This document shows positions 8,998 through 25,891 of a stretch of 64,000 nt of DNA, in pieces (position 1 is the first letter of the stretch; the number at the start of each line of letters is the position of its first letter). A program made the position numbers and the translations under genes. A model generated the notes under the pieces. It had not been told where the DNA came from, did not search any database, and saw only the letters and a list, made by a program, of their open reading frames with translations. Source of the stretch: an uncultured Bacteroidota bacterium (GTDB taxonomy: Bacteria; Bacteroidota; Bacteroidia; Flavobacteriales; Flavobacteriaceae); assembly GCA_902510475.1 (NCBI GenBank), contig CABXCC010000003.1:1-64000 (forward strand), in the 5' to 3' direction.

Positions 8998-9952
8998 AGT
9001 CCAAAACCTCATACACCTCTTTTGAGGTTTCAGTTGTAACTAATTTTTGTCTAAAGGGCTTAAAGTTTTCAATTCCTTTAAAGTAATTTGAGTAGTGTCT
9101 TCTGGTTTCATAAACGCCTAGCCTTTCTCCCTTCCAGGAAACAGACATTTCTAAGTGTCTTTTGGCAATTGCTGCCCTTTCTTTTATAGAAACTGCGGGT
9201 TTGTGTTCTCCCGTCTCAAAGTAGTGCTTGATTTCATTAAAAAACCAAGGGTTTCCTATGGATGCTCTTCCGATCATAGCGCCGTCTAAACCTAAGTTGT
9301 CTCTGACAAACTTGGCTCTTTCTGGCGTGTTAATGTCTCCGTTAGCAAAAACAGGAATGTGCATTCTTGGATTGTTCTTAACTTTTTCTATATAACTCCA
9401 ATCAGCATCCCCTTTGTACATTTGGGCTCTGGTTCGTCCATGTATTGCTATTGCTTTACATCCAATGTCTTGAAGCCTTTCTGCTACTTCGACAATTTTT
9501 ATCGATTCATGGTCCCAACCAAGCCTTGTTTTTACTGTAACCGGCAAAGAAGTTCTTTCAACAATGGCTTTAGTTAAACTTTCCATTAAACATATGTCTT
9601 TTAATATCCCTGCTCCTGCACCTTTTGAGACAACTTTTTTAACAGGACAGCCAAAATTAATGTCTATTATATCTGGGTTTGACTTTTCGACAATATCAAC
9701 GGCTTTAAGCATGGAGTCTAGTTTGGCTCCAAATATCTGAATCCCAACAGGTCTTTCCTTCTCATATATGTCAAGTTTAATTACGCTTTTTGCTGCATCT
9801 CTAATTAATCCTTCTGATGAAATAAACTCCGTGTAAACGACATCTGCCCCGTTTTCTTTGCATAACGCTCTAAAAGGCGGGTCGCTTACGTCTTCCATAG
9901 GTGCCAATAGAAGAGGAAAACTCCCTAACTCTATATCTCCAATCTTTACCAT
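8963..9952 (-). CDS. dusB: tRNA-dihydrouridine synthase
   Basis: An FMN-dependent TIM-barrel protein of 329 residues. It opens PLLLAPMEDVSDPPFR, has the catalytic-cysteine motif INFGCPVKKV (Cys about 102), VKTRLGW, and the FMN-phosphate region GDINTPERA with GAMIGRAS. It reduces uridine to dihydrouridine in tRNA D-loops. The DusB subgroup fits best, and the symbol is given at that level only. Its 3' end overlaps the LolC/E-like gene by 35 bases in convergent orientation. It is divergent from lepA across a 92-base gap containing a -7 element for each gene. Confidence 0.9.
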   Translation of the reverse strand: MVKIGDIELGSFPLLLAPMEDVSDPPFRALCKENGADVVYTEFISSEGLIRDAAKSVIKLDIYEKERPVGIQIFGAKLDSMLKAVDIVEKSNPDIIDINFGCPVKKVVSKGAGAGILKDICLMESLTKAIVERTSLPVTVKTRLGWDHESIKIVEVAERLQDIGCKAIAIHGRTRAQMYKGDADWSYIEKVKNNPRMHIPVFANGDINTPERAKFVRDNLGLDGAMIGRASIGNPWFFNEIKHYFETGEHKPAVSIKERAAIAKRHLEMSVSWKGERLGVYETRRHYSNYFKGIENFKPFRQKLVTTETSKEVYEVLDSIAEQFAEYSF

Positions 9953-9971
9953 TTAATTATAAATGTTTTGG

Positions 9972-9979
9972 CAAAGATA
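9972..9979 (-). promoter_or_regulatory. -7 promoter element for dusB
   Basis: TATCTTTG on the minus strand fits TAnnTTTG and would start transcription roughly 15 bases upstream of the dusB ATG. No correctly spaced -33 element is obvious. Confidence 0.4.
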
Positions 9980-10019
9980 ACCAAGTCTTTAATATGGGCA
10001 TATAACAATAATTTTTACT

Positions 10020-10027
10020 TATTTTTG
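10020..10027 (+). promoter_or_regulatory. -7 promoter element for lepA
   Basis: TATTTTTG fits TAnnTTTG and lies 17 bases before the lepA ATG. With the dusB element it makes the 92-base gap a divergent promoter region. Confidence 0.4.
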
Positions 10028-10044
10028 TAGCCTTAATTTGTCAG

Positions 10045-11841
10045 ATGAAAAATATTCGAAATTTTTGCATAATTGCCCATATCGATCATGGAAAGAGCAC
10101 GCTTGCTGACAGATTATTAGAGTTTACTGGAGCAATCACTGATCGAGAAAAAAAAGACCAACTTTTAGACAACATGGACCTAGAAAGAGAAAGAGGGATT
10201 ACCATTAAATCTCATGCAATTCAAATGTATTTTAATCATAAAGGTGAAGATTTTGTATTAAACCTAATTGACACGCCTGGACATGTAGATTTTTCATATG
10301 AGGTTTCCAGATCGATTGCGGCTTGTGAAGGAGCTTTGTTGGTTGTTGATGCGGCACAAAGCATCCAAGCGCAGACTATATCGAATTTGTATTTGGCTTT
10401 AGAAAATGATCTAGAAATTATTCCGGTTTTAAACAAAGTAGATCTTCCAAGTGCAAATCCTGCTGAGGTTACAGATGATATTGTTGATTTGTTAGGTTGC
10501 CGTGCGGAAGAAGTAATTCCTGCAAGCGCAAAAACAGGGCTTGGTATTGAAGAAATTTTAGATGCTATTATTAATAGGGTACCGCCACCAAGCGGAGAGC
10601 CTGACAAACCATTACAGGCATTAATTTTTGACTCTGTTTACAATCCTTTTCGTGGAATAGAAACTTATTTTAGAATTCTTAGTGGTTCCATAAAAAAGAA
10701 TCAAAAAATTAAATTCATTGCAACGGGAAAATCTTATTTTGCTGATGAAGTTGGAACGCTTAATCTTAAGCAAAAACCAAAGCAGGAAATTTGTACCGGA
10801 GATGTTGGGTATTTAATCACTGGAATAAAAGAGGCTAAGGAAGTAAAAGTTGGAGATACAATCACTGATTTTGAAAACCCTACACTCGAGGCTGTTTCGG
10901 GTTTTGAGGATGTTAAGCCCATGGTCTTTGCTGGTATTTACCCTGTTGACACAGAAGATTATGAAGAGCTTCGTGGTGCAATGGAAAAGCTACAATTAAA
11001 CGATGCGTCCCTTGTTTTTACCCCAGAAAGCTCGGCTGCTTTAGGATTTGGATTTCGTTGTGGTTTTTTAGGAATGCTTCACATGGAAATTGTTCAAGAA
11101 CGCCTAGAAAGAGAGTTTGGAATGACGGTTATAACAACCGTTCCTAATGTTTCTTATCATGCGTATTCAAAGAAAAATCCGGAAGACATTATTCTTGTTA
11201 ACAACCCTTCTGATTTGCCTGACCCTTCATTTCTAGACAAGGTTGAAGAGCCTTTTATCAAGGCTTCAATAATAACAAAATCTGATTTTATCGGAAATGT
11301 GATGTCTCTTTGTATAGAGAAAAGAGGGGTTATAAAAAGTCAAACATATCTTACTACAACAAGGGTTGAGTTGGTTTTTGATATGCCTTTGGCTGAAATT
11401 GTTTTTGATTTTTATGACCGATTAAAAACAGTTTCTAAAGGTTATGCCTCTTTTGATTACTCACCTATTGGCCTTCAAGTATCAAAACTGGTGAGGGTAG
11501 ATATTTTATTAAATGCAAAAATTGTTGATGCCCTCTCCGCTTTAATTCACGCAGACAATGCTTATAGAATTGGTAAAAAGATTTGTGAAAAACTAAAAGA
11601 ATTAATCCCAAGACAACAATTCGATGTTCCTATTCAGGCGGCAATTGGTACAAAAATAATTTCTAGAGAAACGATAAAGGCATTAAGAAAAGATGTTACG
11701 GCTAAGTGCTATGGTGGGGATATCACAAGAAAAAGAAAGCTTTTAGAAAAACAGAAAAAAGGGAAAAAGAGAATGCGTCAAGTTGGAAGTGTTGAGATCC
11801 CTCAGGAAGCTTTTATGGCAGTATTAAAATTAAGTGACTAA
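10045..11841 (+). CDS. lepA: Elongation factor 4 (LepA)
   Basis: A translational GTPase of 598 residues, the normal LepA length. The P-loop AHIDHGKST is at residues 12-20, switch II DTPGHVD follows, NKVDLP is the G4 motif, and the LepA-specific C-terminal domain has KGYASFDY and ends with the basic [23 protein letters not shown] segment. It acts on ribosomes, back-translocating or remodelling stalled complexes. It has its own probable promoter and is convergent with the CNNM-type gene, with only eight bases between their stops. Confidence 0.97.
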
Positions 11842-15311: not shown

Positions 15312-16163
15312 TTGAATTTATACCCCATTATTGCTGGTAATTTTATGCTTGACGGCGGCGCCATGTTTGGCGTTGTTCCCAAATCTATTTGGCAAAAAAC
15401 AAACCCTGCAGACAATAACAATATGGTAAAAATTGCTGCGCGCTGTTTGCTTATTGAAGACGGCGATCGGCGTATTTTAATTGATGCGGGAATGGGTGAT
15501 AAGCAAAGTGAAAAGTTCTTTGGCTATTATTATAGGTGGGGGGAAGATTCGCTGGAGTCCTCATTAAAAAAACATGGGTTTCATACTGATGATGTAACCG
15601 ATGTTTTTCTAACGCACTTACATTTTGATCACTGCGGCGGTGGGGTGATTCGCTCTGGGAAAAGCTCTTTTGAAACTACTTTTAAAAACGCAAACTATTG
15701 GAGCAATAAGGGTCATTGGGACTGGGCAACCGATCCAAACAAAAGAGAAAGTGCCTCTTTCTTAAAAGAAAACATTCTACCAATAGAAGAGTCTGGTCAA
15801 TTAAATTATTTAGAAAAAGATGAGGTTAATTATTTAACCCAAACCGACTTGGGTTTTGACGTGTTGTTTGTGGATGGTCATACGGAAAAACAAATGATTC
15901 CAGTTATTAATTACAAAGGTCAAAAAATTGCCTTTGCTGCAGACCTTGTGCCTACGCATGGTCATGTTCCTCTTACTTATATTCCTGGATATGACATAAG
16001 GCCTTTAATTTCTTTGAAAGAAAAAGATTTATTCTTAAATTATTGCGCCGAAAACAATGTTTTATTGTTTTTTGAACATGACGCTTTTGTAGAAGCTGCT
16101 TCGCTTCATAAAACTGCGCGAGGTGTTCGTGTTAACGAAAAAATTAAATTGCTTGAATTATGA
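15312..16163 (+). CDS. Metallo-beta-lactamase-fold hydrolase
   Basis: The zinc motif HLHFDHCGGG lies near residue 102, with later ligands in VDGHTEKQM, AADLVPTHGH and FEHDA, the full MBL set. The ORF track starts at TTG 15273, but the N-terminal 13 residues there are AT-rich and unlike the family. TTG at 15312 gives MNLYPIIAGNFMLDGGAMFG, the start I expect for this quorum-quenching-lactonase-like group, and 283 residues. The substrate is unknown. The stop overlaps the next start in an ATGA, so the T9SS protein downstream is probably translationally coupled. Confidence 0.85.
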   Translation: MNLYPIIAGNFMLDGGAMFGVVPKSIWQKTNPADNNNMVKIAARCLLIEDGDRRILIDAGMGDKQSEKFFGYYYRWGEDSLESSLKKHGFHTDDVTDVFLTHLHFDHCGGGVIRSGKSSFETTFKNANYWSNKGHWDWATDPNKRESASFLKENILPIEESGQLNYLEKDEVNYLTQTDLGFDVLFVDGHTEKQMIPVINYKGQKIAFAADLVPTHGHVPLTYIPGYDIRPLISLKEKDLFLNYCAENNVLLFFEHDAFVEAASLHKTARGVRVNEKIKLLEL

Positions 16164-19100
16164 AAAACCCAACCAATATGAAGAACTTTTTTTTATACCT
16201 GTTTTTAATTTTTCCATTTATAATTAATTCTCAAAGTGTAGGTGATATTGCGTTTATAGCGTTTAACGCAGATGGAGATGACGATATTGCTTTTGTTGCT
16301 CTTTCTGAAATATCCTCTGGAACTGAAATATACTTTACCGATAATGAATGGACGGGAGCTGCATTTAACAATACCAATGAAGGAACCGCTATATGGACCG
16401 CATCATCTACTGTGAGTGCGGGTACTGTTGTAGTTATTAATAATCTTAGCGTGTTTGATTCGTCATGGTCCGTTAATGTTGGAACTATATCGGTTAGCGG
16501 AAGTTGGAATATTGGTAGTAGTAATGATTGTGTCTGGGCTTTAAGTGCTGCTCCAGCCACTTCGTATGGGTCAACACCAACCTTTTATGGAGTTATTTGT
16601 AATGATGTATCAAATGGAGACACAACTACAGGGTCAGGTTTAACTCTTGGAACAAATGGAATAGATTTTAATAATGATCGTGATGGGTATGTTTATACCG
16701 GGAGCAGATCCAATCAAGCGTCTTTTTCAGCATATTTAGCTGAAATATATAATTCAAGTAATTGGCAACAAGAATCATCAAACGGGGAAGCTATCCTACC
16801 AATTTCTACAACTGCTTTTGCCGTCACAGGAGGTTCGGCTGACCCCGAGCCAACAAATCAACCCTCTGGGCTATCTGCGTCCGTAACTCATGAGAAAATT
16901 ACTTTGACATGGACAGATGCTGTAGCCGGAGATCAAGCTCCTTCCAAGTATTTGATAATTGGTGAAAAAGATAGCTCAATAGCTGACCCTGTAGATGGAA
17001 CGGCAATTGCTGATGATAGCGATGCCTCAGACAATAGAGTTTCGATCAATATAAACCATGGTGTTGGCACAACTTCTTTTTCAAACTTAGGAGTTTCAGC
17101 GTCCTGGTATTTTGAAATTTTTCCTTATACTAACTCAGCAAGCGATATTGATTTTAAAACAAATGGCACAGTCCAAACCGGCAATGCAACTACTGCTAAT
17201 GCAATTCAAATAACAGAAATTGTTTACAATTCTCCTTCTACTGACTGGGAGTGGGTAGAATTATACAATCCAACGGCCTCAGCAATTGATATTTCAGGTT
17301 ATACAATAATTGACGCATATCCTAATACAATGACGACATTTCCTGGTTCAACATCAATTTCTGCAACCTCCTATTTTACAGTTGTTGTTAGCGGAGGTGG
17401 AACAGCACAATTTAGTGCTGACTATGACCCAGGGGCTGGCAACTACGTTGGTGGTCTTAATAATGGGGGTGACTCGGTAATTTTAAAAGATGCTTCAGGC
17501 AATATAGTCGACCAAGTCGATTATGATGATGGTTCCCCGTGGCCAACCGATCCTGGCGGCTCCTTTAAATCGTTAGAGTTAATCGATGGAAATAATAATT
17601 ATTATGCTGCAAGTTGGCAGGCCTCTTCTGCTGAATATGGTTCCCCTGGCGCTAAAACATCAACCGCCTGGAACAGCTCTCTTGGTTCAGGAGATAATTT
17701 GACCATTTCTAGCCCTGATAATATCGTTATAACAGGAGATGAAGAAATTAATAACATAACAATAAATAGCGGAGCTGGTCTTACAGTTGAAAAAACCGGT
17801 TCACTAACAGTTGCTGGAGATTTTACAAATAACGGAACTGTTAAGTTACAATCCGATTCAAATGAATTTGCAGCGATAAAAGTTACTGGCACTCCAACTG
17901 GAAATATAACTTATAAGCGTTATGTAAATACTGTTGGCACAAATGAATGGGATTTAATTGGCTCGCCCGTTGGAGGTAATAATTATATTAGTTCGTTCAT
18001 AACTGCAAATTCTGGCAGATTAGCAACTAACGGAAGTTCTCCAACAGCATATGCAGTCGGGTATTATGATAATTCTGCAGATAGTTGGACTAATTATAAT
18101 TCAAGCACGGTGGTTAATAATTCAACCGCTTTTGATCCTGGAAAAGGTTATCAAATGGCACATGTTTCAGGTGGTGTATTAGATTTTACAGGAACAATAC
18201 CCTCAACGACCGTTAGTGAATCCGTTATCAATAATAGTGCTTCTGGGAGAAGATGGAATCTTGTTGCAAATCCATTTCCTTCGTTTATTAATGCAAATGA
18301 CGATGCAGATGCCACAAATAATTTCATTGATATTAACGCCTCACAAATTGATGATGAAAATTATCTGTTTGTATACGGATTTGATGCAGATGGAACTGGA
18401 TATACGGCCTACGGAGAAAATTATAACAATAACAACACTCCTGTTTACATAGCTCCAGGTCAAGGGTTTTTTATAGCTGCTGAAAGTAGTTCAAGCTCAA
18501 ATGTTTCCTTTACAACTGCCATGCAAACCATAACAGGCTCTGACGATTTTGTTTCCGGAGATATATATGATGATTTTGGAAATCAAATTCAAGTTAGATT
18601 GTACAAACAAAATCTCATGATTGAGGATGCACATATTTATTTCAATGATGATGTAACAGCAGGGCTAGATCCTGGTAGAGATGCTGGAGACTTAAACCAG
18701 TCTGCTGGTTTAATGAGTAGATTAGTTGAAAATGACCAAGGCGTGGGCTTTGCTATTCAAGAATTACCAGCAGAAACTATGAATAACTGTATAGTTCCAT
18801 TGGAAATTAATACGTATGCTAATGAAGAATTCAAAATTAGTCTTCACTTCTATTCAGTTGACAATATAAATATTTACTTAGAAGATACTGAAGAGGGGTC
18901 AATGACTAATTTACTCGAAGAAGACTTTGTGTTAACTCCTACTAGTAATTTAGAGGGTGCGGGAAGATTCTTTATCCACATGACTGCTGATACAATGAGT
19001 AATGAAGAGGTGTCAACAAGCATGTTGAATGCTTATAAAGAAACAGGTGCTAGCTATATCACTGTTGAAGGATTAGCTACTCAATCGAATGAAACTAACG

Positions 19101-19261
19101 TTAGTTTATATAATATTCTTGGTAGAGAAGTGTTGTCTACTAGTCTTAACAATAACATGGGCACACAAACAATCTCAACAATTGGATTGTCTGAGGGTCT
19201 TTATGTGATTGTGTTAGAGTCAGGAACTGAAAGATTAACTAAAAAGCTTTTAATACAATAA
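16160..19261 (+). CDS. Large secreted lamin-tail-domain protein with T9SS type A sorting domain
   Basis: This 1033-residue protein has a signal peptide (ending near INSQ), a beta-rich N-terminal region beginning VGDIAFIAFNADGDDDIAFV, and a fibronectin-III-like stretch around residue 230. A lamin-tail domain starts near residue 350 (IQITEIVYNSP, WVELYNP). A long module follows that it shares with the protein at 19463, and the last 75 residues form a type IX sorting domain (SLYNILGREV, LTKKLLIQ). It is expected to cross the outer membrane by the T9SS and be attached to or released from the surface. No catalytic motif is visible. Its start overlaps the MBL gene stop; ATG 16178 is an alternative. 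Confidence 0.9.
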   Translation: MKNPTNMKNFFLYLFLIFPFIINSQSVGDIAFIAFNADGDDDIAFVALSEISSGTEIYFTDNEWTGAAFNNTNEGTAIWTASSTVSAGTVVVINNLSVFDSSWSVNVGTISVSGSWNIGSSNDCVWALSAAPATSYGSTPTFYGVICNDVSNGDTTTGSGLTLGTNGIDFNNDRDGYVYTGSRSNQASFSAYLAEIYNSSNWQQESSNGEAILPISTTAFAVTGGSADPEPTNQPSGLSASVTHEKITLTWTDAVAGDQAPSKYLIIGEKDSSIADPVDGTAIADDSDASDNRVSININHGVGTTSFSNLGVSASWYFEIFPYTNSASDIDFKTNGTVQTGNATTANAIQITEIVYNSPSTDWEWVELYNPTASAIDISGYTIIDAYPNTMTTFPGSTSISATSYFTVVVSGGGTAQFSADYDPGAGNYVGGLNNGGDSVILKDASGNIVDQVDYDDGSPWPTDPGGSFKSLELIDGNNNYYAASWQASSAEYGSPGAKTSTAWNSSLGSGDNLTISSPDNIVITGDEEINNITINSGAGLTVEKTGSLTVAGDFTNNGTVKLQSDSNEFAAIKVTGTPTGNITYKRYVNTVGTNEWDLIGSPVGGNNYISSFITANSGRLATNGSSPTAYAVGYYDNSADSWTNYNSSTVVNNSTAFDPGKGYQMAHVSGGVLDFTGTIPSTTVSESVINNSASGRRWNLVANPFPSFINANDDADATNNFIDINASQIDDENYLFVYGFDADGTGYTAYGENYNNNNTPVYIAPGQGFFIAAESSSSSNVSFTTAMQTITGSDDFVSGDIYDDFGNQIQVRLYKQNLMIEDAHIYFNDDVTAGLDPGRDAGDLNQSAGLMSRLVENDQGVGFAIQELPAETMNNCIVPLEINTYANEEFKISLHFYSVDNINIYLEDTEEGSMTNLLEEDFVLTPTSNLEGAGRFFIHMTADTMSNEEVSTSMLNAYKETGASYITVEGLATQSNETNVSLYNILGREVLSTSLNNNMGTQTISTIGLSEGLYVIVLESGTERLTKKLLIQ
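17693..19258 (+). repeat. Shared C-terminal module, copy 1
   Basis: The region coding for roughly the last 520 residues of the first lamin-tail protein is paralogous to the end of the second (copy at 21319). Matching landmarks in the same order are GNITY, WDLIGSP, PGKGYQMA, SGRRWNL, APGQGFF, EGAGRFF, DTMSNEE and LTKK. It is a protein-level duplication, not an exact DNA repeat. Confidence 0.8.
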
Positions 19262-19264
19262 GCC

Positions 19265-19408
19265 ATGAAAAAGACAGAAATAACTAGAAAACAGGCAATT
19301 AAGAAGTTGGGGAAATATGCAGCATTAACTGCCATTGGAACCTTCGCTATACTGAATCCTAAGAAAGCTCAGGCTAGTTCATCGCCGCCAGAACCTGGTC
19401 GCTGGTAA
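19265..19408 (+). CDS. Mini-gene: 47-residue precursor of a predicted exported decapeptide
   Basis: This short ORF is absent from the track. It begins three bases after the first T9SS gene and ends 54 bases before the second. The product has a basic N-terminus (TRKQAIKKLGKY), a hydrophobic core (AALTAIGTFAIL) and a good signal-peptidase I site AQA, which would release SSSPPEPGRW. TRKQAIK loosely resembles a twin-arginine motif with RK in place of RR. I have an impression of similar short proteins beside lamin-tail genes in other Flavobacteria, but cannot verify it. Translation is plausible from the start context, the spacing and the signal-like design. The function is unknown; it could be a peptide signal, a surface tether or a chaperone-like partner of the neighbouring exported proteins. 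Confidence 0.72.
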   Translation: MKKTEITRKQAIKKLGKYAALTAIGTFAILNPKKAQASSSPPEPGRW

Positions 19409-19462: not shown

Positions 19463-22400
19463 ATGTATTTGAAAAAAAAAATTTTTATTCTATTGTTACT
19501 TCCGTTTGTTGTTTTCTCACAAACCGGTACGCCAGACGATTACTATGATGGTTTTGTTTTTAATCAGTCCAGCTCTAATTTGAAAACAGCTTTGGCAAAT
19601 AAAATAGCCTCAACTAGTAATCTTCAATCATATAGCACTGCTTGGGATGCTTTAAAAATTAGTGACTTGGCGTCGGGTTCAACCACTCATGTTTCCCTTA
19701 TTTATGGGTATAATGATACTGACGGGATTTATAAAACTGATGAGACAAGACTCAAAAGCGAAAATCAAACTAGCTCTCAAGGCACAGGAAAGTGGAATAG
19801 AGAACATGTGGTTTCCAAGTCCCTTGCCAACCCCACCATGGATACATCGACAGGAATAGGAACTGACTTACATAATTTAAGGGCTGTTGATTATACGATG
19901 AACATTTCCAGATCAAACAAAAGGTTTCAGGATGGGGGCTCTACAGGCGATTCTAACACAATTACAAATGATGGCGATAACGGCTGGTATCCTGGAGACG
20001 GCACAGGTACTGGGGGAGACGATTATCGCGGTGATGTTGCTAGGATTGTGATGTACATGTACTTGAGATATCCAGACCGTGTCTCTGCAAACAACTGCGC
20101 TGAATTGAGCAGCAACAATTATCATCCAGACATGCCTGATATTTTTTTGGAATGGAACAAAGAAGATCCTCCCAGCTATATTGAAATAAAGAGAAACGAC
20201 ACATTTGAATCTTACCAGGGCAACCGAAACCCATTTATTGACAACCCTTTCTTAGCATACTATATTTGGAATGGGCCAACAATAACTAATTGGTGGAGCG
20301 ACACACCAATAGGAACCCCTGGCATATCTTTTAATAGCTCAAACTCTGTAGATGAAAATGGAGACTCAACAGCTAGTGCAAATTTGTCTGTTACAATGTC
20401 TAATTATGATTCAAATCATGGAGATATTGTTTTGACCTACTCTGTAGATGCAAGCACTACAGCTGAATCTGGTGATTACAGCTATGTCCCAATCAGTCCC
20501 AATCAGCTAACTTTTAATTCAGACGGAACACAAACAATCTCTATTACAATAAATAGCGATGCTGATAGTGATAACGAAACCCTTGTCTTCAACTTTACCC
20601 TTAACAACAATAATGTAGAGCTTAGAAACACACAACACACAATTACCGTTGTTGATGATGAAAAACCTTTAATTATCACAGAAATTGCTGACCCAAACAA
20701 TGATCATACTGGTAGATATGTTGAGCTTTATAACCCTTCTTCCTCCTCTATAAGCTTAGACGGATTATATTTAATTCGGTGGACAAATGATAACGCTGAC
20801 CCAACCAGCTCGTCAGCAAAAAAACTATCCGAACATTGTGGGTCTACTATGACTGGAAATTCTTTTTGTATTCTTTCTAAGGCTACCGTTTCTGGCTTTA
20901 TGACAATGTATGGGCTTGAATCGGATGTTTCTCTTGGGTCTGCGTTGGTTACTGATTCCAACGGAGATGATCAAATTGCGATTGTACTTTCAGATGTTGC
21001 GAGCTTTAACTCTTCTTCTTATACAATCATTGATATTTTTGGTGTTCCTGGTGAAGATGGTACTGGAACCAGTCACGAATTTGAAAACGGAAGGGCTGAA
21101 AGAAAACCCTCTTCAACCACACCTTCATCATCCTGGGCCTCAAGTGACTGGAATGTTGAAAATGATACCGGAGGGGGTGACTCTACTAATTCTCCGCAAA
21201 CAGCTCCTGCTGGTTATGATCCTGGACATTGGATTGGAGCAGCCACAACCGACACATGGAATGGGCTTTTTGATACTAGCTGGGCAACAGCCGAAAACTG
21301 GGCTAGCGGTGCAACGCCAGATCCTGGAGATAAAGTTTTTATTCGTGGCGCCAATAATGATCCGGATATTTTGACTGATATAACCCTTACAGATCTTACC
21401 GTAAAAGCTAATGGTGTTTTAGATATAGAGGCTGCCGGATCACTAAGCCTTTCAGGCAATTTTTCTAACAGCGGAACTGTTACATTAAACTCTTCATCTT
21501 CTGTATATTCTTCGATTAAAGTTGGAGGCACCTCGTCGGGAAATATTACCTACAATAGACATGTAAACTCGCTAAGCGGCGGTACAGGTTGGGATTTAAT
21601 CGGCTCGCCTGTAAATGGATTACAGATTAGCTCTTTTGTGTCCACTAATACCTCTGGAAGTTCCCCTCTGGCTACCGGAAATGGCACTGGTGCTGGTGCA
21701 ACTGGTGAATACGCAATCGGAACGTATGATCCTAGCAATAACACCTGGACTAACTATACCCAAAGCGTTGTTGAAGTGGATGATCTTGATTTTGTGCCTG
21801 GAAAAGGTTATCAAATGGCAACTGACAGTGGCGCAGCAATGTCTTTTACTGGGACGATTGACACAGGCTCAACTGAGAAAATATCAATTGAAAGTTTTAC
21901 TGATGCTTCTGGGCGTCGTTGGAATTTAATTTCTAATCCGTACCCATCGTACATTAATATTGGTCCCAGCACAACGGACAACACTTTTCTTGACGAAAAT
22001 GAAGGTGTAATTGATAATTATTATACTGGAATTTATGGGTACGATGCTGTAGCTGACTCTAGTATATACACAATTATTAACGACCTTTCTGGCCCTACTT
22101 CAATTGCGCCTGGTCAAGGGTTCTTTGTGGCTGCAAGAAGCACAACGGCTGCAAACATTACCTTTAAAGAAGAAATGCAAACAGTAAACGGGGGTGACGA
22201 TTTTATTTCTGGGGATGTTGTTGAGCATGCTGAAGTTGAATTAAGATTATTAAACAATGGTATTTTGATGGGCAAAACAAACCTATTCTTTGTAGAAGGC
22301 CTAACATTAGGCCTTGATCCAGGATATGATGCAGGAAGCTTTACACAAAACGATCCTTTAATGACAAGGCTTGCTGAAAATGATGAGGGTCATGGAATGG

Positions 22401-22909
22401 CAATTAATGCCATGGGCCTTGAAGCAATGGAAAATGTAATAGTCCCTCTTGTAATTAATCAAAGTGCCGGACAGGAGTTTAGGGTTAGTCTATACAATGC
22501 TAACGTAAATGGCGCTAATGTATATTTAGAGGACATCCTTGAAAGCGAAATGATAGATCTTAAGGTTGGCGACTTCGCTTTGACTCCAACAGGTGATTTA
22601 GAAGGGGCTGGAAGGTTCTTTTTACACATTACCTTAGACACAATGAGCAATGAAGAATTGTCAACTACTATATTGAATGCTTACAAAGAAATCAGTTCTA
22701 GCCACATTACAATAGAAGGGTTAGCCACTCAACCTAATGAAACTAAGGTTAGTTTGTATAATGTTTTTGGAAGAAAGGTGTTAGAGAATTCTTTGGGTAA
22801 CAATGTAAGCACACAAAAAATTTCAACAGCTGGATTATCTGCAGGTATTTATATAATCGAATTAGAATCAGGAAATGATAGATTAACTAAGAAGTTTATA
22901 ATACATTAA
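19463..22909 (+). CDS. Secreted endonuclease I / lamin-tail protein with T9SS sorting domain
   Basis: A 1148-residue secreted protein. After a signal peptide (ending VVFSQ) comes an endonuclease I domain (about 25-260) with the His-metal motif KWNREHVVSKS, then GTDLHNLRAVD and ARIVMYMYLRYPDR, as in EndA-type nucleases that cut DNA non-specifically. Next are a Calx-beta-like region (about 286-395), a lamin-tail domain from about 402 (IITEIADP, YVELYNPS), the module shared with the previous gene, and a C-terminal type IX sorting domain ending RLTKKFIIH. It likely degrades extracellular DNA as a phosphorus or nitrogen source, or attacks DNA in matrices. Function beyond the nuclease domain is inference. 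Confidence 0.92.
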   Translation: MYLKKKIFILLLLPFVVFSQTGTPDDYYDGFVFNQSSSNLKTALANKIASTSNLQSYSTAWDALKISDLASGSTTHVSLIYGYNDTDGIYKTDETRLKSENQTSSQGTGKWNREHVVSKSLANPTMDTSTGIGTDLHNLRAVDYTMNISRSNKRFQDGGSTGDSNTITNDGDNGWYPGDGTGTGGDDYRGDVARIVMYMYLRYPDRVSANNCAELSSNNYHPDMPDIFLEWNKEDPPSYIEIKRNDTFESYQGNRNPFIDNPFLAYYIWNGPTITNWWSDTPIGTPGISFNSSNSVDENGDSTASANLSVTMSNYDSNHGDIVLTYSVDASTTAESGDYSYVPISPNQLTFNSDGTQTISITINSDADSDNETLVFNFTLNNNNVELRNTQHTITVVDDEKPLIITEIADPNNDHTGRYVELYNPSSSSISLDGLYLIRWTNDNADPTSSSAKKLSEHCGSTMTGNSFCILSKATVSGFMTMYGLESDVSLGSALVTDSNGDDQIAIVLSDVASFNSSSYTIIDIFGVPGEDGTGTSHEFENGRAERKPSSTTPSSSWASSDWNVENDTGGGDSTNSPQTAPAGYDPGHWIGAATTDTWNGLFDTSWATAENWASGATPDPGDKVFIRGANNDPDILTDITLTDLTVKANGVLDIEAAGSLSLSGNFSNSGTVTLNSSSSVYSSIKVGGTSSGNITYNRHVNSLSGGTGWDLIGSPVNGLQISSFVSTNTSGSSPLATGNGTGAGATGEYAIGTYDPSNNTWTNYTQSVVEVDDLDFVPGKGYQMATDSGAAMSFTGTIDTGSTEKISIESFTDASGRRWNLISNPYPSYINIGPSTTDNTFLDENEGVIDNYYTGIYGYDAVADSSIYTIINDLSGPTSIAPGQGFFVAARSTTAANITFKEEMQTVNGGDDFISGDVVEHAEVELRLLNNGILMGKTNLFFVEGLTLGLDPGYDAGSFTQNDPLMTRLAENDEGHGMAINAMGLEAMENVIVPLVINQSAGQEFRVSLYNANVNGANVYLEDILESEMIDLKVGDFALTPTGDLEGAGRFFLHITLDTMSNEELSTTILNAYKEISSSHITIEGLATQPNETKVSLYNVFGRKVLENSLGNNVSTQKISTAGLSAGIYIIELESGNDRLTKKFIIH
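21319..22906 (+). repeat. Shared C-terminal module, copy 2
   Basis: Second copy of the roughly 520-residue C-terminal module, homologous in order and landmarks to 17693-19258. Divergence between copies is substantial in the middle and lowest near the DTMSNEE to sorting-domain section. Confidence 0.8.
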
Positions 22910-25100: not shown

Positions 25101-25891
25101 GAAACCTTCTTTTTTTGCTTTTTATTTTTGAGAGTTTTCTAATGCACTCACAGTATAATGTTGAGCATTCCGTGTATTTTGATACTGATGAGTTTTTGCT
25201 CACAAAAACTGAACAAACTAGGTTACAAAAACTGATCTCCAGTTTGTCAAGAGACAATGTAATTCAGATTGAAATCTATGGTTTTTGTGACGACAGGGGC
25301 GGTGAAAATTACAATTTGGTTCTTTCTCAAAATAGAGCAAACTCTATTAAGAGTATCTTTAATGGTTCCTCTTTTTTTCCTGAAAAAATATCAACAGTTG
25401 ACGGCAAAGGAGAATTGCTGCTAAATGTTATTGATGACAAAGACCCAAGTGTTTTAAGAGCCTTGAATAGGCGTGTTGATGTTGTTATTAGTTATCCTGA
25501 AGATAAGTCTCCTGCTAAAAATATAAGTAGAAATGTAGCTGATAAAAATAAGTTTGTTTTAGATAATGTTTTATTTATTACAGGTTACAGCTATGTTACT
25601 AGAAACTCTAAAAAAACGTTAAGCAATGTGGTCAAAACTATAAAAGAAGACAGCTTTTCTTTTATAATTCAAGGCCATGTCTGTTGCACTGAAGGTTCTC
25701 TTGATGCTGTAGATAAAAAAACCAATAAACGTAATTTGTCTGTTGCGAGAGCTAAGTTTGTTTATGATTATTTTATAAAAAATGGAATTGATAAATCTCG
25801 TATGTCTTATGAGGGGCTAGCACATAAATTTCCTTTGGGGGGTAGCGCAGATAAAGATAGGCGGGTTGAAATTTTAATTGTTTCTGATTAA
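25097..25891 (+). CDS. OmpA-like protein with two tandem OmpA domains
   Basis: A 264-residue protein with a signal peptide (FLMHSQ) and two OmpA C-terminal-like units: residues about 25-125 (VYFDTDEF, EIYGFCDDRGG, LSQNRANS) and about 150-262 (VLFITGYSY, IIQGHVCC, LSVARAKFVYDYF, DRRVEIL). Each carries the usual arginine-rich peptidoglycan-binding pattern, though the GHTD core is altered to GFCD and GHVC. No beta-barrel domain is present, so it is probably periplasmic. The TTG start overlaps the rnpA stop. Its 3' end overlaps the convergent acetyltransferase gene by 18 bases. Confidence 0.82.
   Translation: MRNLLFLLFIFESFLMHSQYNVEHSVYFDTDEFLLTKTEQTRLQKLISSLSRDNVIQIEIYGFCDDRGGENYNLVLSQNRANSIKSIFNGSSFFPEKISTVDGKGELLLNVIDDKDPSVLRALNRRVDVVISYPEDKSPAKNISRNVADKNKFVLDNVLFITGYSYVTRNSKKTLSNVVKTIKEDSFSFIIQGHVCCTEGSLDAVDKKTNKRNLSVARAKFVYDYFIKNGIDKSRMSYEGLAHKFPLGGSADKDRRVEILIVSD

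Follow-up and report, generated by a model that had tools for sequence, protein, structure and literature searches.

The phosphorylated lasso peptides, among them paeninodin and pseudomycoidin, are modified on a serine by an HprK-type kinase and a nucleotidyltransferase (PMC8498205, PMC9266682). In pseudomycoidin, PsmK and PsmN phosphorylate and glycosylate this residue (PMC9266682), and PadeK is an HprK-type kinase of lasso peptides. The linear polyphosphorylated peptides (LPP) are RiPPs of Bacillota in which the kinase LppK phosphorylates Ser3 of the core (Popov et al. 2026, PMC13381572). Of known systems, these two come closest to the one described here. It resembles LPP in having a small precursor with a conserved N-terminus and a variable C-terminus, an HprK-like kinase and an NTP transferase with no macrolactam cyclase, a serine near the start of the core, and polysaccharide genes nearby.

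Our subject is a mini-gene in a 64,000-nucleotide stretch of DNA from an uncultured member of the Flavobacteriaceae (assembly GCA_902510475.1, contig CABXCC010000003.1, positions 1 to 64,000 of the forward strand), referred to below as the window. Together with the kinase and the type IX secretion system (T9SS) neighbours of its relatives, it suggests that a hitherto unrecognised system of peptide modification is connected with type IX secretion. A partnership of such a peptide system with the T9SS is unprecedented as far as the literature searched shows, since searches for a link between T9SS and RiPPs, and for HprK with exosortase, returned nothing relevant. The mini-genes supply a precursor family that neither Pfam nor NCBIfam contains, and the system would link the pair of kinase and nucleotidyltransferase, known from Bacillota RiPPs, to one class of type IX cargo. 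It would also offer a testable route to the function of phosphorylated or phosphoglycosylated RiPPs. It also suggests that some of the surface proteins which marine Flavobacteriaceae export by the T9SS depend on a small modified peptide.

The mini-gene and its relatives

The features of the locus are as follows.

16160..19261, + strand: T9SS type A surface protein of 1033 aa, with signal peptide, LTD, C-terminal module and sorting domain (Pfam)
17753..19039, + strand: C-terminal module of the upstream protein, aa 532-960 (match in 80/80 upstream proteins of at least 350 aa)
19265..19408, + strand: mini-gene, predicted 47-aa precursor peptide (ORF, homologues, dN/dS)
19265..19375, + strand: putative leader part, residues 1-37, ending at the conserved AQA (dN/dS 0.03)
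19376..19405, + strand: putative core peptide SSSPPEPGRW (dN/dS 0.38)
19379..19381, + strand: codon of Ser39, the proposed phospho-acceptor by analogy with LPP core Ser3 (PMC13381572); serine in 93/93 homologues
19463..22909, + strand: T9SS type A endonuclease I protein of 1148 aa, downstream neighbour with module (Pfam)

The original prediction, made from the window alone, had placed a 47-codon ORF, missing from the annotation, between two T9SS genes, and its coordinates are confirmed: the ORF follows the stop codon of the 1033-aa gene at a distance of 3 nt, leaves 54 nt to the start of the 1148-aa gene, and translates as MKKTEITRKQAIKKLGKYAALTAIGTFAILNPKKAQASSSPPEPGRW. The precursor design that had been proposed is likewise present and conserved. 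The basic start carries a net charge of +6 over 18 residues and is followed by a hydrophobic core, AALTAIGTFAIL, both being conserved in homologues, nearly all of which also keep AQA and so have small residues at -3 and -1. By sequence and column counts, these are the features of a signal peptidase I substrate (basic n-region, hydrophobic core, small -3/-1) at a predicted site, and the KK that precedes AQA forms a basic c-region. The tail of ten residues, also part of the prediction, holds for the window copy but not for the family, in which it reaches about 60 residues. Searches of Pfam and NCBIfam with the 47-mer gave no match.

The suggestion of a Tat-like start found no support among the homologues, in which position 8 is R in 93/93 and position 9 is K in 89, N in four and R in none, the sequence never being TRR. 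The n-region is long and basic and KK precedes AQA, both reminiscent of Tat signals, yet position 9 is never Arg, and a Tat route was rejected as a defining feature because the twin-Arg never occurs.

Profile searches found the mini-gene in 30 of 301 Flavobacteriaceae genomes and in 13 of 21 incomplete genomes of the window's genus, with up to four copies each; the window genome itself has three intact copies and one remnant. A phylum-wide sample contained it in 5 of 396 genomes, every one in the window's own family, and a scan of GTDB genome contigs yielded 168 relatives, with named hosts that include Winogradskyella, Psychroserpens, Gelidibacter, Polaribacter, Subsaxibacter and Xanthomarina. 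Eight positions (R8, A11, T22, A23, G25, L30, P32 and S39) are invariant among the approximately 93 distinct homologous peptides compared, and P41, P44 and a near-terminal F/W are mostly kept in the core. Within the genus, dN/dS (Nei-Gojobori, with paralogues and orthologues pooled and dS about 1) is 0.09 overall; residues 1-37 stand at 0.03 and the tail at 0.38, all far from 1. The mini-gene homologues are under strong purifying selection, and the ORF at 19265-19408 is a genuine gene, far beyond chance. Its product reads as a conserved leader joined to a faster-evolving core, not as a generic signal peptide, and, judged from their sequences, the mini-genes form a conserved family of predicted tiny precursor peptides in marine Flavobacteriaceae.

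The remnant is frame-shifted and lies beside an amylase/SusD-type locus (L034:5682-5799, - strand; G000:C1, approximately 25,680-25,800); at the equivalent place in a genus relative (G056, L036), beside the same kind of gene, an intact mini-gene is read. Two species of one genus (G317 and G638) carry six mini-gene copies per genome. Several contigs (G056:C15:1, G056:C22:1 and a number from SAGs) have their first base within or shortly ahead of a mini-gene, which is what one would see if near-identical copies had broken the assemblies.

Type IX cargo upstream of the mini-gene

Both window neighbours are sorting-domain proteins, as originally predicted. In Pfam, the gene at 16160-19261 matches LTD (1.7e-20) and Por_Secre_tail (PF18962, 2.4e-9), and that at 19463-22909 matches Endonuclease_1 (2.1e-39) and Por_Secre_tail (3.2e-10), with a sub-threshold LTD. 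It had also been suggested that similar short ORFs accompany such genes elsewhere, and this is supported: TIGR04183 (T9SS type A) was found on 81/85 upstream neighbours of mini-genes scanned, against a base rate for T9SS C-terminal domains (CTD) of about 2% of genes (14-131 CTD genes in each of 12 complete genomes, gene number being approximated at 0.9/kb). For most T9SS cargo genes no mini-gene follows: a complete genome has 1-6 mini-genes beside these 14-131 CTD genes. In the window's genus most mini-gene copies lie 2-3 nt behind the upstream gene; outside the genus the gap is mostly under 400 nt. Homologues were found at equivalent positions, for example at L155, where the mini-gene lies 2 nt behind a full-length homologue of the window's upstream protein. 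The two clear exceptions among the upstream neighbours are FolD, at loci without a T9SS gene. A locus adjoining a glyoxalase-like gene (L035, L037, L075, L090, L154) holds a mini-gene in several genomes; one of these also has the T9SS gene there, the others lack it, and in some FolD lies upstream.

The constant part of the upstream proteins is a C-terminal module of approximately 430 aa, common to 80/80 of those of at least 350 aa, for which Pfam has no family in any of 41 members. Their N-terminal domains vary, and in the shortest partners the module has just a signal peptide before it and a CTD behind it. The presence of an LTD or endonuclease part is hence incidental, and the functional link to lamin-tail and endonuclease domains that had been drawn from the window is not supported. 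Either domain as the definition of a partner was accordingly rejected. The downstream endonuclease gene also carries the module (21395-22687, E 4.8e-138). The five strong copies in the window genome (C3:17753, C3:21392, C5:5276, C1:28737 and C1:33123) adjoin its three intact mini-genes, upstream of all three and downstream of two. The module is found in weaker form in many genomes without a mini-gene.

Kinase and nucleotidyltransferase partners

Besides the invariant Ser39, the original prediction had missed what lies behind the mini-gene in most genomes: a dedicated kinase, a nucleotidyltransferase and a beta-barrel. Both enzymes are present at 51 loci, nearly all of which run in the order T9SS gene, mini-gene, kinase (approximately 377 aa) and nucleotidyltransferase (approximately 353 aa), the two enzymes being swapped in G004. 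A beta-barrel of approximately 194 aa, with a weak match to OMP_myx_plus and none in Pfam, follows the nucleotidyltransferase in 43/51 loci (e.g. L044:12262-12846).

Across the 301 family genomes, 30 have the mini-gene and 27 the kinase; 27 have both and 271 neither, the mini-gene occurring without the kinase in G000 (the window's assembly, 65% complete), G294 and G312 only. The Fisher p value for this association is about 2e-35, and 8e-25 by genus, neither being phylogeny-corrected. The kinase adjoins the mini-gene in 25/27 genomes, is distant from it in G124 and lies on a separate contig in G317. The module reaches at least 250 bits in all kinase-positive genomes and, among the matches listed, no more than 217 bits in the kinase-negative ones, G000 excepted; this association is partly circular, mini-gene neighbours having supplied the sequences for the module model. 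In three genera (g29, g39 and g141) the genome with the kinase has the module at 325-560 bits and its sister without the kinase at approximately 100-109 bits. Co-occurrence thus shows that the mini-gene functions with an HprK-type kinase, and usually also with an NTP_transf_5 enzyme.

Neither enzyme was found in the window's assembly. The kinase is present in 14/21 members of the window's genus, often on the opposite strand 2-3 kb from the mini-gene, and its absence from G000 is therefore most likely due to incomplete assembly. The nucleotidyltransferase was seen in G056, the sole relative searched, and we infer both enzymes of the window's organism from its relatives in the genus.

All of the kinases scanned (41/41) match HprK_rel_A (TIGR04352) below cut-off, at 61-74 bits among the matches listed against a curated cut-off of 200; on these scores the kinase would be a relative of that equivalog and not a member. 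Five of the 41 also match ScmC (TIGR04249), weakly. Both HprK-related kinase A and the SynChlorMet protein ScmC are encoded in cassettes alongside PqqD-like proteins; among the recurrent neighbours of the mini-gene, neither an exosortase nor a radical SAM gene was recognised. The kinase His, P-loop Lys and Asp-Asp align with those of Coxiella HprK, His-Lys-Asp-Asp being the residue set required in lasso kinases (PMC9266682). An AlphaFold2 model (pLDDT 93) has an HprK/PEPCK-type fold. The model places ahead of it an N-terminal domain of approximately 90 residues in the order b-b-b-a-a-a, which we take to be the RRE/PqqD topology; comparison with PDB and Pfam profiles gave chance matches only, with no PqqD or RRE, and the domain may be called RRE-like by its predicted topology only.

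The nucleotidyltransferase matches NTP_transf_5 (PF14907) over cut-off in 12/15 genomes, including all 11 complete ones, with scores of 92-119 bits against a cut-off of 31.2, and its GDxD acidic pair is conserved. It had no match among PDB sequences, and fold comparison gave a general nucleotidyltransferase match only. In G056:C16 (L095), an NTP_transf_5 gene at 9500-10531 (- strand), with no kinase beside it, adjoins genes that read as Wza/Wzc-type polysaccharide export.

The system differs from LPP in several respects. The LPP leader motif YxxPxVLxHQxIxFETxxS is absent from a 20-sequence alignment and from the column counts of 93 homologues; in place of YxxP the mini-gene leader has ITRKEAIKKMGKYAALTAIGTF-LNPKKAQA, and is itself signal-peptide-like. 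No SpI-like peptidase or MsbA-like exporter recurs within approximately 8 kb of the 51 loci, recurrent neighbours being those of at least 110 aa, read from sequence rather than scanned with profiles. As to the RRE, no discrete protein of this kind recurs at the loci, and the kinase N-terminus has the RRE-like predicted order but no profile match. Unlike in LPP, the kinase bears its own N-terminal domain, the cluster contains T9SS cargo and a beta-barrel, and the hosts are Flavobacteriaceae. The mini-gene system would function like the LPP type, but is not classed as LPP on account of the leader motif, peptidase and exporter. The lasso macrolactam cyclase C and B2 protease are not among the recurrent neighbours at the 51 loci, and the modified Ser of phosphorylated lasso peptides is C-terminal, whereas the invariant Ser of the mini-gene stands at the start of the core.

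Proposed mechanism and alternatives

We consider it reasonably probable that the mini-gene product is a precursor, which is phosphorylated, perhaps glycosylated, at Ser39, exported and cleaved to give a small modified peptide that serves the module-bearing surface proteins. Modification of Ser39 is proposed by analogy, because HprK-type kinases and nucleotidyltransferases modify Ser in small ribosomal peptides. In the cytoplasm, the leader would dock on the kinase, probably at the N-terminal RRE-like domain as modelled, and the kinase would phosphorylate Ser39; the nucleotidyltransferase, again by analogy, would then attach a sugar or nucleotide to the phosphate. The leader would double as a signal peptide, carrying the peptide across the inner membrane, and would be cut off after AQA. 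Most speculatively, the mature peptide may work with the module-bearing T9SS proteins, for instance as a bound ligand or an attached decoration, and the 194-aa beta-barrel may assist at the outer membrane. A tentative idea, which we would not expect to hold in this specific form, is that the modified core has the dedicated role of tag, ligand or linker for the surface proteins that the module defines, being either displayed on them or attached to them. If true, it would represent a peptide-dependent route of surface display or anchoring in Flavobacteriaceae, using phospho-sugar chemistry so far known from RiPPs of Bacillota.

The alternative that survives best, although we judge it unlikely, is that the product stays uncleaved as a small inner-membrane protein in which phosphorylation of the Ser acts as a switch, and which serves as an adaptor or assembly factor for module-bearing T9SS cargo. 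The conservation of the 'signal peptide' part (dN/dS 0.03) far exceeds what a signal peptide needs and suggests sequence-specific contacts, and the tight coupling of mini-gene and cargo genes would fit equally; however, hardly any homologue lacks AQA, and the invariant Ser stands shortly after this site, at what would be the beginning of a processed peptide.

A secreted signal peptide was among the roles that the original prediction had proposed; an unmodified signal peptide or pheromone of this kind, freed through Sec or Tat and signal peptidase, now appears improbable. The signal-peptide-like layout with its basic c-region agrees with release of this kind, but the exclusive co-occurrence with the kinase would go unexplained and the twin-Arg is never present at positions 8-9. 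TatC, which might be cited in its favour (41/44 mini-positive genomes, 29/29 of the complete ones), is near universal and hence uninformative. About as improbable, in our view, is that the modified peptide is a RiPP with antimicrobial or toxin-like action, sent out together with T9SS effectors, of which the endonuclease would be one: lasso peptides and LPP are known to be tailored by kinase and nucleotidyltransferase, an endonuclease stands among the neighbours and the distribution is patchy, but the recurrent neighbours of the 51 loci included no recognisable immunity or ABC exporter gene, the N-terminal domains of the cargo vary, and several copies per genome lie beside ordinary surface proteins. 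Finally, the ORF is short and begins 3 nt past a stop, as would a chance ORF or a translation-coupling leader without function as a peptide, an explanation with practically no remaining probability, being refuted by conservation at the protein level across 93 distinct homologous peptides (dN/dS 0.09) at many genomic positions.
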